Assembly: GCA_030141605.1 (NCBI GenBank)
Contig: JAQGDQ010000785.1
Coordinates: 31,970 to 95,969, forward strand
DNA length: 64,000 bases
Origin: Tubiluchus corallicola
Taxonomy: Eukaryota; Priapulida; Priapulimorpha; Priapulimorphida; Tubiluchidae
Reading direction: 5' to 3'
In this document: piece after piece, positions 17,301-43,586 of the stretch
Layout of the letters: every line of letters starts with the position of its first letter
Position numbering within the stretch: position 1 is the stretch's first letter
Made by a program: the position numbers and the translations under genes
Notes under the pieces: generated by a model
What the model was told of the DNA's origin: nothing
Databases searched by the model: none
The model's input: only the letters and a program-made list of their open reading frames with translations

Positions 17301-20300
17301 GGGAAGGTCAACGCATGCTGTCCTTTGAGTTGCATTGGTTACTAAGATAAGGAGAGGTGGTTTGTCTTCGTGTCAATGCTCTCTTCTGACCAAGCTTAGA
17401 GTTTTCCTGCTACCACCTGAGGGGAGTTAGGTAGAGTTCTTCTTGGTTCATGTCTGTGTCATGCTTTTTGTTCTAATTAACCTAGCTATATTTCTTTCAA
17501 CTAAATTTAACAAACAATAATAGCCAACAGTGTTATTCAATTCAACTGTGCTTTATTCTCGTTATGTAGAAATCATTATTACGCTGCCCTGGCCCCACTT
17601 CTGCAGGCCCAAACCATCACCAGATGGCGTGGTTCCCCTAGCAGTTCAATATATTATGCAGTAAAAAATAAAAATGCGAATTATATAAGGATACACGCAG
17701 GATCGTCCATATCAGGTTCTGTAGAATCAAAGTACGGATGACTAGCAAGTAACTCCGGAATTAACGGCAGGGTAAGACTTGCATGAGCTTTACCAACGTT
17801 CTTCAAGCACCTAGAAATGTGAGATTATTTTTACATGGTTAATTTAACTATTTCTTGCCGATGTGGCTGTGTGTTATGCTAATACAGTAACATCTATTCT
17901 GACTGTTTGCAGCTTTGAGCAAAAGGTCATCACATTTCCGCATTTAGGACTAAATAATTTGAACAATTACACAGCAAAAATTAATGATTCTTTCAAAATC
18001 ACTTTTCAAGTTGTTATTGAGTTACTCTGATTTAAATTTAATTTTATTGAGTTACTCTGATTTAAATTTAATTTTACTGAGTTACTCTGATTTAAATTTA
18101 ATTTTATGGAGTTACTACAATTTAAATTTAATTTTATTGAGTTACTCTGATTTAAATTTAATTTTATTGAGTTACTCTGATTTAAATTTAATTTTATTGA
18201 GTTAGTCTGATTTAAATTTAATTTTATTGAGTTACTCTGAATTTAGACACACACAGAAAACTATGGATCAGAACCAAATAGCATCAATAGGTCTGCATTT
18301 GACACAATAGAAAGGTGTTTATTTTACTACAGAAGCATAAGCAGAATGAACTAGACCTACACAGACGTGCACAGGCTTAACAACATCCATTAATGGGAGC
18401 AGACTAACAGGCATGCAATCACTGCACCATATAATTATACTGAAGGTAAGTCAGTTAGTAGAATGCTACAAGATTAGCACCTAGATGGCAGCACCTTACT
18501 ACAATGTACATATAACAACTTCCACGCATTCAGTTGAATAGAAATAAATTCATTAGACTCGCTACGAATTTTGAAATGCTCTACAGTGAAATGTGTTACA
18601 AGGTGTTGACCATTCACCTTCACAGATTTTTAGCTTTAGACATTTATTGCGAAAAGTCATGTGTAAGAATTACATACTTCCATACTGATATACGATCCTG
18701 AGGATATCTCGTTAGATTAGCAAGGAGCTGGTGAATACACATCCTTATGCATTCCGTTGTACTTAAAGTAGAAGCACCCAGTAATTCATGAATACCTTCC
18801 CGTATCTCATATGAACTGTCCTACAAAAATAAAAATCAGATTGTTTATTGTTTTTAAAATGCTGTTTATTATCTTTATCATATTTTCTTCAGATTTGGGA
18901 ACAAATTACCATATATACTTATGTACAAGTCGATGTGCATTTTGAGACCGAAAATTGCACCATTTTATATGTTACCTGTGTACACGTCGACCATAAAATA
19001 TTAAGATTTTCCAGAGTAAATGATGTCAATAATTCCTTCCCATTTGAAGAAAAAATAATTTACTAAAATTAATAGCTCTGCGTATTTGTGTTTTATATAC
19101 GCGTGTATGCGTATTGGTTAATTTATAAGCCCAAACTTAGAAAAGCCCTGGAAATCGTGCAGAAATTCACATTGTTTCAAAAAGAATGCCCAGCCTCCGC
19201 ACGCATACGTGGCTAAAAACCAGCAAAGGGTGAGCTCGAAAACTAAATTTAATAAATTTAAGCAATGATTAGTGAATGGACAGATGACCACAGGGTTCAA
19301 CATTCTTTCTGGTCGTTCTTATTCGTACAGTAATTCTGGTTATTTCTCCTTTTAATGTAAACGTACAGTGCAGTGCACCACGTAGTCCAATGTCTTGTCT
19401 TAACTATTTAGTTTTAATAATGAACTATGTTCTGGTCCCATCACAACTGCGTGCATTAAGCAGGTATGCCACTGAGTGCTCAATTCTAATTTGCCCTGTG
19501 CCGAAGCTCGTAAAAAAATACATCATAAAGATCTTCCGCCCTCTGCAGCCGTGCTGCTACTAAGCACAAAACATTGGTTAGTTTTCATTATTGCAAAATG
19601 TAAAAGAACTGAGATACGTTCCAGAGGCAAAAATCACTGCTGCTTAAATCATATAAATTAAAAGTTTTATGGGTTTTGCTCAAGTTTCTATTGATTAATT
19701 TCTTTCTGTTTGCTTGAAACCACCTATATGTTTTACTAACCTAGCTAGCAGTTTCTCTTTCATTAACATTTAAGTCTAGGCAGCGGTTAAACAATAAACA
19801 CTGCAGCAGAGTCAAAGCCAAGTGCTGGGCGACCTTGGGAATTTTATCTAGTCTGGTTACTATAGCAACAGGTTGCACGCAAAATTCCTTGTTTCCAGGT
19901 CTAACTTGATACAAATGACTAGCGTTTAGTGGTCAGTCTTGAAGCAAAAAAACGTACATTTGTATAATAATTGCACTGCTTACTTTACTAGTGCATTTTT
20001 AGAACAATACGTTCTGTTTTAATGTATTAAATTAGTTAGAAAAGCTGCTGATAAATCAAAAATTTGATTCGAGCAAAGTAAAAAATTGTTGTTAAAATGA
20101 AACAGTGCGTTACTAAGTGAAAAAAGGTGTAGAATAATCAGCGTCCTTAAAATGAAACGTCGCTAAACAGGGAGTCATTAAGCGAGGATTTACTGTACTA
20201 GATCTACAAACCTGCAACACGGCTAGGACTAGATCTACAAACCTGCAACACGGCTAGAACAGTCTCTAACTGATCTTCACGCAACACAATGTGAGCCACC

Positions 20301-23300
20301 AACTTGAGTAGACAGTTAATCAAGCAGGCGTACAGATTCTACTGTACTAGATCTACAAACCTGCAACACGGCTAGGACTAGATCTACAAACCTGCAACAC
20401 GGCTAGCACAGTCTCTAACTGATCTTCACGCAACACAATGTGAGCCACCAACTTGAGTAGACAGTTAATGGCAAGCAAGCGTACAGATTCTATTTCATCA
20501 TTGAACATGTCGACGAGGAAATCCAGACTTTTCACGGCAAAATCAGCGTGAACGTGCGCAAGCTCACACATAGACATCACAGCTGCACTACGAGCTTCTA
20601 CAAGTGTAAAAAAGTATCAATATAATTTCCGTAAACAATGACAACAAATAACAACAAACTGCATCCCCTTAAAGGCCCATATGTCTAGCATTTTTCTCGT
20701 TGTCAAAATAAAAATGCCCATAAAAAACATTAATCGCAGCGAGAGGCGATATTGCACTTTTAAACGCTCACGAAAACAGCTAACACTGTAGCAAGAAAAA
20801 AGCTTTTGCACTGGAAGTAGATGCCTCTAAATTTATAGCAGAAACTTGAAGCAATAAGGCTAACCTTGCATGCGCTTTGCTGCACGCAACCACAAGTTGA
20901 AGATTACTGATATTACCTGTCCTACAAGCACAAGTATGGCAGCATAAGCGATATTTTCGCGAATTTCTGAAGATTTTAATAGAAATCCCTGAAATTCTTT
21001 AAAAAAATTATAACTATTTAGGTAATTAAACTATTTAGTATATTTTTCCTACCGACTCTAATGTTTTCGCAATCGGCAGATGTACACAAAGAAAAATAGA
21101 AACACAAAAGGTGCAAAATCCGATAAATATTTTTGCCAGAACAAGATGCATCAAAATGACTGGATCCCGTACATCTCTGGTATATTTTAGTATATATCTC
21201 AATTCCACTGCTTTCTTTGCAACATCCTGCATTATTGGGCAATAATTTCATCACTTGCAGCTGCTCATACTTTTACTGTTTTAACATTTGTTAACTTGTT
21301 TGAAGTATTTTCATCAATTTAAAAATTTAACATAATTTTAACTACTCCACTACCTAAGAATTCGTCTTCGAGGCCGTGTACAAAAGCACCACAAGCACCG
21401 GTGTTTATCACCGTTACACTTTCGGCACTGAGTAACTCCATGGGAGCATCGGAAGCCCACTTGTTACCGGTGGCCCACTCGCCCTTCTCAAAGTGCTTCT
21501 TTTGTCTTTCGTGTGCTCCAGCTTTCCTCTAAAACATGATTCATTGTTACAAAAAGAAATAAGAATTATACAAAAGTAATAGTACATCCCAATAACATAT
21601 ACGAGATTATAAGGTTGTTGTATCATTATTGTCAATTTCAGTCACTGGGCTTCCTTAGTATGTAAAAACTACATGACAATACTGTATTGTTATTGTCAAT
21701 TTCAGTCACTGGGCTTCCTTAGTATGTAAAAACTACATGACAATAATGTATTGTTATTGTCAATTTCAGTCACTGGGCTTCCTTAGTATGTAACAACTGC
21801 ATGACAATACTGTATTGTTATTGTCAATTTCAGTCACTGGGCTTCCTTAGTATGTAAAAACTGCATGACAATACTGTATTGTTATTGTCAATTTCGGTCA
21901 CTGGGTTTCCTTAGTATGTAAAAACTGCATGACAATACTGTATTGTTATTGTCAATTTCAGTCACTGGGCTTCCTTAGTATGTAAAAACTGCATGACAAT
22001 ACTGTATTGTTATTGTCCATTTCAGTCACTGGGTTACCATAGTGTCTAAACACTGCATGACAATAAGGTATCGTCATTACCTCGGACAGTTAAAGTTTGT
22101 TGTACTTTCAAAGTTAAGCACAGCTCAGCGAATCCAACTAAAACAGGCAATAGCGCCTTTTTGAAATATTAGCATGGCCGCCAAGTAGGAGCTGTACCGT
22201 GAAAAGGATGATCATGAACTGCAGCGTTATATCAGTGTGATGTAGAGCTTATTCTCGTGGCATTACATCAGCATCTTATAGCAATCTTCGCTTAAGCAAA
22301 CATGTTTGATGTGCAAGGAAGATGCCTACTATAGTTTGTGGCAAGCGATAGCTATGTTCGGTTGCCGTTAATTAACTTTCCAAGCTAATTTTTCAAATAT
22401 TAGAAATAATTGCTAACTTTTATATGCAAGAAAATGTATATTTTGGACAGTAAATTAAAATGAGATTGAGTGTAATCAGTCGTCCGATTTTCTTATAACT
22501 GTTAAAAATGGAATGACATTGAAAATTGCACCACAAACAAACACTTACCCTCATATTAGACATGAGTTTCTTATCCAAAGTTTGTTCCAGAAATTTGCTG
22601 CTAACTTGATGCATTGAACCCAACAATCTAGCAGCTTCAGCTCTAACTTTCATGCTGGTGTCGTTTAACATAAAACAAATCTTTGCAAAACCGTCATCAA
22701 CTAGCCGAATGGATTCTTTATCAGGTGCTTCAACCATCCTGCAAACATGACTTAAGCATAATGTCAACCATCCTGCAAACACGACTTAAGCATAATGTCA
22801 ACCATCCTGCAAACGTGACTTAAGCATAATGTCAACCATCCTGCAAACACGACTTAAGCATAATGTCAACCATCCTGCAAACACGACTTAAGCATAATGT
22901 CAACCATCCTGCAAACATGACTTAAGCATAATGTCAACCATCCTGCAAACACGACTTAAGCATAATGTCAACCATCCTGCAAACGTGACTTAAGCATAAT
23001 GTCAACCATCCTGCAAACACGACTTAAGCATAATGTCAACCATCCTGCAAACACGACTTAAGCATAATGTCAACCATCCTGCAAACACGACTTAAGCATA
23101 ATGTAATAAGTAATTACTGTATTCTACAAGAAAAAGTCATTTTAATTAACAACAGGGAAACTTAGAGTTGAGAAATAGGAAAGATGCTAAAGTGCCCAAC
23201 ATTTCATTTTTGGAATGAAGTTTGGAATTTAAGAGATCTTATTCATCTATGTAGAGAGTTTATAAAAAAGACCCACAGAACTTCTTCTAAAGGTCTTGCG

Positions 23301-26300
23301 AAACACCAAACCAAACATTTTTAAGTTGGCTCATAAAAATTTCAGCAATCATTTTAAAAACTGAGTAAGTGGTTTTAAATATCACCAACAGGAGTAACAA
23401 TAAGTGACCAATGAACGAGCCTATAATGACCACTGACAAGCAGATGACCGGAATGGCACTGGACACCTAAAGAACGCGGATTTTCGTTTTCCGTTTCTCC
23501 CAGTGACCTTAATTCGATAAATAAACCATCACTAAAAAATAGGTCAAGATTTTCAACTTGACACGTGCATTGTTGCAAATGATAAAACTAGTAATAATAT
23601 ATGCGAAAAAAACTCAACGGAATATCTTAAAGTTTGTGAGGTCAATTTTTTGCAATTTAGATTAGATTAGATATTGTTACCCTAAACCTCTACACAGGTG
23701 TCTCTTTTCTGTAATAAAGATGAGCTATTTTTAACAATCAGTTTTAACACCTTTCAGGATAGGTTTGCGTCATCTTCCAGAAAAGTTTCATGGCAGCGAG
23801 TCTAACGCCCTCGTAGCTGTCGGACAGGGAGCGGCCGGCTTGTTCGTAAGCGTTCGTGTGTAGTTCAATTCCCCGATCATGTAGGTTGAGCTAAAAGTAA
23901 GAATGCATAGTTAAAAACTGTACCATGAAATACGAGATAAGTGGGCAAATTCATCAGTCAGTCAGTGGCGGCTCGTGTGCAGGCACTGTGAAACTGCAGC
24001 ACCCCCTATTTTTACCCGATATTAAAAAGCCAAAAAGTTAATTTGCCAACTAAATCTGTCTTGTCTTCGTATCACAGTGATTATATTTTTAGCAAGATGC
24101 AATGCACACAGTAAAATGTACATTCAATACTCGGTGATAGACATACTGGATGTAGAGGGTTGTGGCAAAACTGGAACCTATCTCATCAACGATAATACTC
24201 TAGAACAGAGACATTGCCGATTACTAAGCTAATGCAGTAGGTGCAGTGTATTAGACTCATGGTAATGTAGAATCAATCACCTAACTGTCTAAAAATGTCT
24301 AATATGGGCTGCTCCTAGGCAAAAAAACTGTCGACAATTGACTCAAATAAATAGCTTGGCATAATTGACTCTAAACCACTTCCACACGTTGATTAAACCA
24401 CTAAATGCGCCGATATACAAGCGGCACAAGAGACGATACATGTTGTTTGGATGTAAGCAAAGTGATGGCCTGGCAACTAGCGATCAGCTTGCGAAATAAT
24501 GGACGGTGTCATAGCATAGAGGACTTTTTAACGGTCCAGATTTTGTCTGATTCTTCCAATATCCATAAAAGCGAGGTCCGGCAGACCGAGATACGAGTGT
24601 ATTGATGTGGTTTTGATAAAGAGACACAATTTGGTACACAATTTCTCAAAACTTATTTTTCTACGTCTATTTAATAGTTAAATGCTCGAATACTATGTGG
24701 AGGGATTCAAATTTCGAATTCTACACATACCAACGCTTGAAATGCACTGCTTCTGACCCTGGGATCCTGATCTTCAGTCAGTTCACCTAGCAACGTGTGC
24801 ACGGTAGAAAACTGCTCTTGCGAACTGTGTGCGGAAACCAAGTCTGCAATGAGTTCGATGCAGCGAATCCGAACTAGATGATCGTTCACTGTAAGATACT
24901 AAATACATAATCCACATATTAGAAAATACAACCACATGAATTAGAGTTACCAGTGGTGACTATCAAGCAATTATAATTTTTAACTCTTTCGCTACTTTGC
25001 ACTAGTCTTCGGATAGACTTGAATGGCTTAAAGCAAAATCGAACCCAATCTTAAACTGTAGGTCAAACAACCTAAAATATTGAAAGGAAACCTGCTTTTT
25101 TACAAAAATGACTTACATGGAAGAATTACCACCAGACAAATACAATTTTGCATTCGCACCACTAGTTCTTCGCTATTACATGCATTCCGCCATTCACTAG
25201 TAAGACGGGCACTAACGCCTGCATTGCGGAAATGCATTGTAGAAAAACAGGTGCTGTACCTCTCGGTTCAAATGTGTTCATTTCTGACATACTGCACACG
25301 TCGACAACTCATGCGTGAGCACAGAGGTAAATTTGAAGTTTGAATCTTTACCTTAAAACTTGCCTAGTTTTAGTACAACACACTGAATCTCTTACAGTAC
25401 CACTGTACTTCACAAACACGTGCAACACGCTAGTGAAACATTTTTGATGTTGAAATTTATGTTAGTTTGTGATGTCATTAAATTGGGCTAGTGCGCTGTT
25501 AACTGAGCTTTAATCTATTATTTAATTATCAGAAATGTTTTGCAGTATTAACTGTATTAAATGTGTAGTTTTTGCACTTGAAAATGGGGTAGTTGTGATG
25601 ATCGGTTATACCATCCATCATTGTCGCAACACCTATTTTGATATATCTTTCATATGTTGTTGTGTGTGCATAAATAATGATCTAATTACTTTATTGATTT
25701 ATTGCGCTGTTTATTTAAATTTACATTACATTGTGTGTTTTTGTAAGATTTTGACAGTAGATGGCTCTGGCCGCTTATTTCTCTGCTTACCTGTAATTAG
25801 GTTACCTGAAAATTCGAATACCAAATGGCTTCAACCTGTTTTGGGATCTTACTACAGAGTTTGTGTTTTACACTAGTTATGTTCTGACTGTCAAAGTTAC
25901 AGGGTGGTGGAGTTTTGCTGGTTAGTCCACATCCTGAGGTTATTTTATATGGCTGAACACCAAGTTTGGTGTGAACCTGTCTTTAATGGTACTCGTATGC
26001 AGTGAGATGATTTGGCACAAAGACAATGGTTTTGTCTACTTTTGTTTATTCATTGTTTGCTGTGATGACACTGTCTTGACATTCCAAGAAGCAAGTGTTT
26101 GGTAACCATATTTCCACCTGCAGAATAGGACTCAAATTCTCGCCCAATAGTAGTGGAAAACCAGTCGAGAACCAGTTCTACCTGGACCAATGGTCTGTCT
26201 GTTAGTCTGAACTGAAGGTTCTGTTTGTCACCCTGCAAAAAGGACGATATCTGGCTTTATTACTGGGAGTCTGAGGCAACCAGGCAAGAGTTCAATCCCG

Positions 26301-39346: not shown

Positions 39347-43586
<4,240 letters not shown>

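Follow-up and report, generated by a model that had tools for sequence, protein, structure and literature searches.

An eleven-copy 3' splice site in the INTS4 gene of Tubiluchus corallicola, probably a tolerated boundary minisatellite of the mirage type

A 3' splice site of INTS4 stands in eleven tandem copies in the priapulid Tubiluchus corallicola. The array is real and is an amplified 3' splice site; it lies in the window, the whole 64,000-nucleotide stretch of DNA that was analysed. We favour, at a probability of roughly 0.7, the reading that the array is a mirage, that is, an intron-exon boundary which was duplicated in tandem, grew as a minisatellite and is carried as a tolerated passenger while the exon-adjacent copy is used. 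The features involved are listed below in window positions, a slash marking a splice boundary.

22730..23104, minus strand: 34-bp tandem array of 11.0 copies (TRF; copies listed one by one)
22738, minus strand: genuine acceptor, the array's last copy (first base after the AG)
22772..23078, minus strand: ten decoy acceptors, first base after the AG at 22772, 22806, 22840, 22874, 22908, 22942, 22976, 23010, 23044 and 23078, each leading to a TGA 43 nt in
22549..22738, minus strand: INTS4 exon of 190 nt whose acceptor is the last array copy; donor GTAAGT after 22549
22739..23750, minus strand: intron containing the array
23751..23890, minus strand: upstream INTS4 exon of 140 nt, ending GAAAG/GTGTTA (…YPE + AG)

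TRF gives the array a period of 34, 11.0 copies, 96% matches and a score of 708. The list of individual copies agrees, bearing out the initial annotation, which had counted eleven copies of a 34-bp 3' splice site with ten of them upstream at 34-nt spacing. On the transcript, each unit joins 25 nt of intron end to 9 nt of exon start and reads CATTATGCTTAAGTC(GTG, ATG or ACG)TTTGCAG/GATGGTTGA; the 11 copies follow one another on the minus strand in exact 34-nt steps, with the first base after the AG at 22,738, 22,772 and so on to 23,078. CAG is present in 11 of 11 copies, and the variable triplet is GTG in seven, ATG in two and ACG in two. The unit end originally described, TGTTTGCAG, is found in 9 of the 11 copies but not in those at 22,806 and 22,976, which read CGTTTGCAG.

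The stitched exons match human INTS4 (7cun_D) with 429.8 bits. The body of the array-adjoining exon is 71% identical to the human protein over 56 aa, and its translation aligns with the human stretch IVPIP…EEIRLVDD. The exon-derived part of the unit reads MV and thus looks like original coding sequence, since human INTS4 has IV there. Joining the exon end at 23,751 to 22,738 produces the in-frame junction AG/G ATG GTT GAA GCA, and the joined exons (23,751 to 22,738-22,549) keep an open frame across the following exon at 21,528. The earlier identification of the gene, of the genuine acceptor and of the upstream exon end at 23,751 is upheld by the human match and the frame, but its label 'exon 7' is not: this is the sixth recognisable INTS4 exon, and further 5' exons may exist. 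Use of the acceptor at 22,738 is what the reading frame, taken by itself, would predict.

When the upstream exon was joined in turn to each of the 11 acceptors in a frame simulation, only one, 22,738 beside the exon, left the frame open. All ten decoys met a TGA after 43 nt, within the next unit, as had been proposed, and 181-487 nt ahead of the next exon junction. By the usual rule, a premature stop more than 50-55 nt before a junction leads to NMD; messages spliced to a decoy are therefore of the NMD type in 10 of 10 cases, in line with the earlier expectation. If the array intron is retained, an in-frame stop codon is complete 7 nt into it; if the 190-nt exon is skipped, the frame is shifted and stops follow. 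The stops behind the decoy acceptors arise because a unit of 34 nt (1 modulo 3) carries TGA in one of its frames, and with so trivial an origin they are no sign of design.

The decoys look like complete 3' splice sites, with the strength of ordinary acceptors according to a weight matrix. The matrix was built from 66 acceptors of the same genome (16 hand-picked, 50 taken automatically from CCT and adaptin exons) and applied with leave-one-out; the automatic sites were chosen by pyrimidine content, which favours pyrimidine-rich sites and may have included some wrong ones. For the automatic set, 51 of 88 exon rows were used and 50 of these 51 yielded a site; the remainder were rows of bacterial genes or of genes without introns, rows with multiple stops, and others left out for neither reason. 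Array copies scored between 3.85 and 5.11, while the 66 real acceptors had a median of 3.9. The genuine acceptor scored 5.11, equal to the copy at 22,908, while seven of the others reached 4.57 and two reached 3.85; depending on the copy, 33-47 of the 66 real acceptors lay below. Of the 16 hand-picked acceptors, the genuine copy outscored 13, the copies at 4.57 outscored 8 and those at 3.85 outscored 6. When every AG within 23,750-22,500 was ranked, the array copies took the top 11 of 68 places, followed by an AG a little upstream of the array, at 23,123 (score 3.8).

Because the decoys score as ordinary acceptors, local sequence cannot explain the choice of the last copy, which appears to be set apart by its position beside the exon body and its donor. 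Going by general splicing biology, selection of this copy would need exon definition or exonic enhancers; exon definition is known as a deciding force from other systems, and simple 5'-to-3' scanning for AG would favour the first copies over the last. RNA structure hiding the decoys received no support from folding of 22,700-23,140, which gave -112.6 kcal/mol and a z-score of +0.62, nothing unusual, with 72 of 100 shuffles folding at least as well. With eleven nearly identical acceptors before one conserved exon, the array is a natural duplicated-splice-site experiment, for which scanning predicts the upstream copies and exon definition the last copy.

Minisatellite-like tandem duplications of exon/intron boundaries have been described in lancelets as mirages (PMC3087553). 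The available text of that report covers the globin genes BflGb6 and BflGb9 and cites Adh3, and that of a second one adds PGBD5 and cites TnC (PMC3902484). The BflGb6 mirage lies at the 3' boundary of an intron, with 6 and 3 units in the two haplotypes, and mirages have been proposed as seeds of new introns (PMC3087553). Data on Adh3 and RT-PCR of the globins, as given in the accessible parts of both papers, suggest no interference with regular splicing (PMC3087553; PMC3902484). As far as these sources describe them, the mirages of Adh3, BflGb6, BflGb9, TnC and PGBD5 resemble the INTS4 array in being minisatellite-like duplications of a boundary, 5' or 3', and in having many AG- or GT-bearing copies with the authentic copy retained beside the exon. 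They differ from it in dimensions, the INTS4 array having 11 copies of a 34-bp unit compared with 6 or 3 units of 150-160 bp in BflGb6 and units of 10-72 bp in Adh3. The host gene also differs from the lancelet mirage genes, the assembly's Hox genes have a spiralian rather than a chordate look, and the INTS4 array is a DNA-level observation. Four structural features of mirages, for which the cephalochordate host of the named cases is no criterion, were looked for, and each was found here: head-to-tail units of minisatellite size (34 bp x 11.0), intronic together with exonic sequence in the unit (25 + 9 nt, confirmed by the frame), AG or GT signals as possible cryptic sites (CAG in 11/11 copies; matrix scores 3.85-5.11), and an authentic boundary beside the exon with an open frame. 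Structurally, the INTS4 array would therefore qualify as a mirage.

Related arrangements have been reported outside lancelets. In human segmentally duplicated genes, variable internal tandem repeats with units of 30 bp on average occur at exon-intron boundaries (PMC2812944); as described in the available portion of that paper, they too are boundary minisatellites able to change splicing. There, with evidence from RNA, the repeats make introns longer or give rise to new ones in recent paralogs (PMC2812944), in contrast to the INTS4 array, which is seen at the DNA level in a conserved gene at one locus. A potato RdRp gene acquired an intron when a segment spanning an intron-exon boundary was duplicated in tandem (PMC4974935, as far as excerpted); there one duplication made a new intron, whereas the 11 copies in INTS4 are predicted to make none. 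Among the matches listed from the open-licence literature, no boundary-spanning minisatellite was found outside lancelets and humans. The passages at hand on earthworm metallothionein genes and an abalone kinase gene describe minisatellites inside introns, and those on a prawn lectin family describe repeats in coding sequence, none of them across a boundary. The present arrays are thus apparently the first of their kind outside chordates within the literature searched, and the INTS4 array suggests that mirages are not peculiar to lancelets. A human interferon-induced transcript reportedly contains a minisatellite whose units give several splice donor sites; as far as it is described, its units supply donors, unlike the acceptors of the INTS4 array.

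The array was most likely made in place rather than imported, judging from the uniqueness of its sequence. A 23-base core of the unit, allowed up to 3 mismatches, occurs at 12 places in the 343.5-Mb assembly, 11 of which are the array itself; the reversed 23-base control occurs at none. A DNA search of the same assembly with the full array returned this locus alone, in one copy, a result that is strong rather than absolute as the search passes over very common words and some stretches read as N. Apart from one core match with 3 mismatches no other copy was found, which is what local amplification would give and a dispersed repeat would not; a dispersed origin was rejected on these searches, in which the unit did not recur at other loci as that of a dispersed satellite or mobile element would. 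Tandem arrays abound on the contig (TRF reports 26 rows for the window, with some overlap), which could suggest that a minisatellite or satellite family already present at other places inserted at the junction and either provided the acceptor or took its place. With the single imperfect core match and a DNA search returning only INTS4, this explanation is largely refuted and we consider it very improbable. The breakpoint itself combines an intron flank, TTATT-A-CATTATG, with an exon flank, GGTTG-A-AGCACC, into the junction GGTTG-A-CATTATG. The flanks have a single base, A, in common, which would suffice to account for the initial duplication.

A trace of later growth is preserved in the order of the unit variants.

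22730..22899, minus strand: five-unit block of 170 bp, whose variable triplets counted from the exon are ATG, GTG, ACG, GTG and GTG (variant list)

Counted from the exon, units 1-5 and 6-10 are identical as 170-bp blocks in an identity test; the block duplication shows a past change in length. This pattern also bears on whether reads were collapsed or expanded at a short repeat during assembly. Such an error has a precedent, as the BflGb6 mirage is stated, in the available text, to be aberrantly assembled in the lancelet draft genome (PMC3087553). Against an error here stand three unit variants whose order is not trivial and recurs every five units, an array of 375 bp that fits within one read of many technologies, and independent boundary duplications elsewhere in INTS4 and in HSP60. 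An assembly artefact is hardly to be expected.

Under the mirage reading, an initial 34-bp duplication across the intron-exon boundary would have been followed by unequal exchange or slippage, with the 170-bp five-unit duplication as the latest visible step. INTS4 would have stayed functional because growth of the array left a complete boundary beside the exon. The spliceosome would mostly take the exon-adjacent copy, as exon definition should prefer a 190-nt exon over versions of 224-530 nt; the donor and enhancers of the 190-nt exon may back exon definition, and NMD would clear mis-spliced messages. The net effect of the array on INTS4 output is probably small. Copy-number variation between individuals is plausible: the 170-bp block duplication records a past change, and a lancelet mirage differs between haplotypes, according to the part of the source at hand (PMC3087553), but the assembly search found one locus copy of the INTS4 array. 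The INTS4 array also suggests that arrays growing across exon boundaries are survivable if one intact boundary remains beside the exon.

Each internal junction of the array also brings a candidate branch site.

22764..23070, minus strand: branch-point-like pentamer TTGAC, its A at 22764 + 34k (yTnAy scan)

In the yTnAy scan, TTGAC is present in copies 1-10 from the exon, 25 nt ahead of the G of CAG, and arises where the exon-derived GTTGA joins the next unit (CATT); in the copy farthest 5', CTTAT (A at 23107) takes its place. It is conceivable, though improbable, that the array is an acceptor platform with multiple branch points which acts as a copy-number rheostat on INTS4 output. In such a platform, the joining of GTTGA to CATT would give ten acceptors a new branch site each, with TTGAC before every AG except the 5'-most, and binding of U2AF and U2 would be spread along the chain. 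Copy number would then set the share that reaches the exon-adjacent copy, the remainder going to NMD, and a fourfold donor two exons downstream would be an echo of the same arrangement.

That fourfold donor belongs to a second boundary duplication in INTS4, which reads in sequence as a donor-side mirage of the same gene.

20187..20492, minus strand: 149-bp x 2 duplication, each copy with a 31-bp x 2 duplication inside (TRF, sequence, frame simulation)

The donor of the INTS4 exon 20,597-20,392 (…GTGTTGCAG/GTTTGT; TTGCAG/GTTTGT) occurs four times, with last exon bases at 20392, 20361, 20243 and 20212, and lies two exons downstream of the 11-copy acceptor array. The nested 31-bp and 149-bp duplications also copy about 100 bp of the exon, and 3 of 3 extra donors lead to premature stops. 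A further array affects a donor of an HSP60 gene on another contig (G000:C29), named by its match to GroEL proteins.

L012:4707-4978 (G000:C29): HSP60 donor array, donor …GTGATAACAGTGAAG/GTGAGTGA (...GTGAAG/GTGAGTGA)

Here GTGAGTGA occurs 12 times with the genuine donor included, 11 times after AG and once after AA. The genuine, exon-adjacent donor is open into the next exon, and 11 of 11 others run into a stop.

Boundary arrays are thus found in 2 of 20 gene regions (INTS4, HSP60, 5 CCT, 7 adaptin, 6 MCM), at 3 boundaries in total. None was found in the 18 regions of the five intron-containing CCT, seven adaptin and six MCM genes, where exons were placed by profile matches, so that an array next to an unrecognised exon could exist; this survey judged arrays above the TRF score 40-100 class. 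Within these 18 regions, only L023 has arrays of at least 2.5 copies with a TRF score of at least 100, and two MCM regions have repeats of about 2 copies, away from the matched exons. As 18 other gene regions lack one, boundary arrays are not general in the genome.

Arrays and junctions were compared by Monte Carlo random placement, with 5 arrays and 24 junctions in INTS4 and 8 arrays and 14 junctions in HSP60. In INTS4, 2 arrays lay at junctions against 1.52 expected (P 0.48), with an incomplete exon model in which four edges are approximate (first exon start, tenth end, both ends of the eleventh). In HSP60, 1 lay at a junction against 2.31 expected (P 0.95); this model is also incomplete, as the stretch between the exons near L013:1430 and L013:5517 is unlocated and arrays lie there. 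The HSP60 array at L013:7725-7995, outside the modelled span, was excluded, and the 22-bp array across L012 and L013 was counted once. Targeting of junctions by arrays was rejected, there being no excess over random placement in INTS4 and HSP60 at these small numbers; since the matches are about as many as random placement gives, or fewer, no targeting need be assumed. Given the small numbers and incomplete models, the junction counts speak for a minisatellite by-product over targeting or selection.

The same counts bear on a regulatory role, in which competing acceptors would slow splicing or feed NMD and copy number would set the INTS4 level. In its favour, the ten decoys are of ordinary strength and all give NMD-type messages, and the fourfold INTS4 donor follows the same logic with stops from 3/3 extra donors. 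These stops are trivial given the TGA and the unit length, however, and a similar donor array exists in HSP60, which is functionally unrelated. Moreover, junction matches in both genes are not above random placement, and lancelet mirages are reported, in the text available, without disturbance of regular splicing (PMC3087553; PMC3902484). We therefore hold regulatory decoys to be unlikely. Nothing found here supports the slowing or tuning of INTS4 splicing that the initial annotation had suggested, and tolerance is the likelier reading; boundary arrays most likely come about as minisatellites grow and are tolerated, on the assumption that they are neutral in an essential gene.

Further arrays carry motifs that resemble splice signals. 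In the next INTS4 intron, a 64-bp x 7 array (window 21619-22065, minus strand) contains 6 TACTAAG, the ideal branch-point motif, and 5 TCATGCAG, and stops 90 nt short of the exon at 21528. An HSP60 intron (L012:7549-7997 and L013:1-1207, G000:C29) consists mostly of a 22-bp repeat, CTAATTTTGTTTACTTTGTAGT, which resembles a branch point, pyrimidine tract and AG and gives numerous decoy acceptors that lie over 100 nt ahead of the real acceptor. At window 41558-41641 (minus strand), a 42-bp x 2 repeat lies about ten bases past the donor of an exon of the ribosomal protein L2/L8 family (Pfam PF03947), with a donor-like GAA/GTAAGT in each unit.

The ratio of observed to expected CpG differs among the gene regions (L004-L013, L021-L037 and the window), being 0.46-0.65 in some and about 0.7-1.2 in others. 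The low-CpG regions have no arrays at a TRF score of at least 100, except L023 (0.55, two arrays). The contrast in CpG ratio and array density raised the idea that two animals are mixed in the assembly, which was rejected as INTS4 matches are confined to one contig (7/7). Animal-type MCM matches fall on about eight contigs, four further weak matches looking bacterial, and together with the single INTS4 contig this favours an assembly of one animal. Methylation differences are presumably the likelier cause, and the CpG classes are possibly classes of gene-body methylation with different tolerance of arrays.

The assembly includes symbiont or contaminant genomes, as six contigs (L014-L019) carry bacterial-type GroEL genes, L014 being confirmed by NCBIfam TIGR02348. 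Among the eight homeobox matches that were read, out of 34, homeodomain signatures suggest one of Post2 type, one of Post1 type and one of Lox4/Lox2 type, the last followed by QALKEMKEQ; such types would point to a spiralian and not to a lancelet. A search of the assembly for COX1 gave no match. Two shortened 18S rRNA copies (L002 and L003, G000:C555), with about 1.1 kb matched of the 1831 model, are oppositely oriented and separated by about 24 kb, and the L003 copy adjoins a rhodopsin-family receptor gene (Pfam PF00001).
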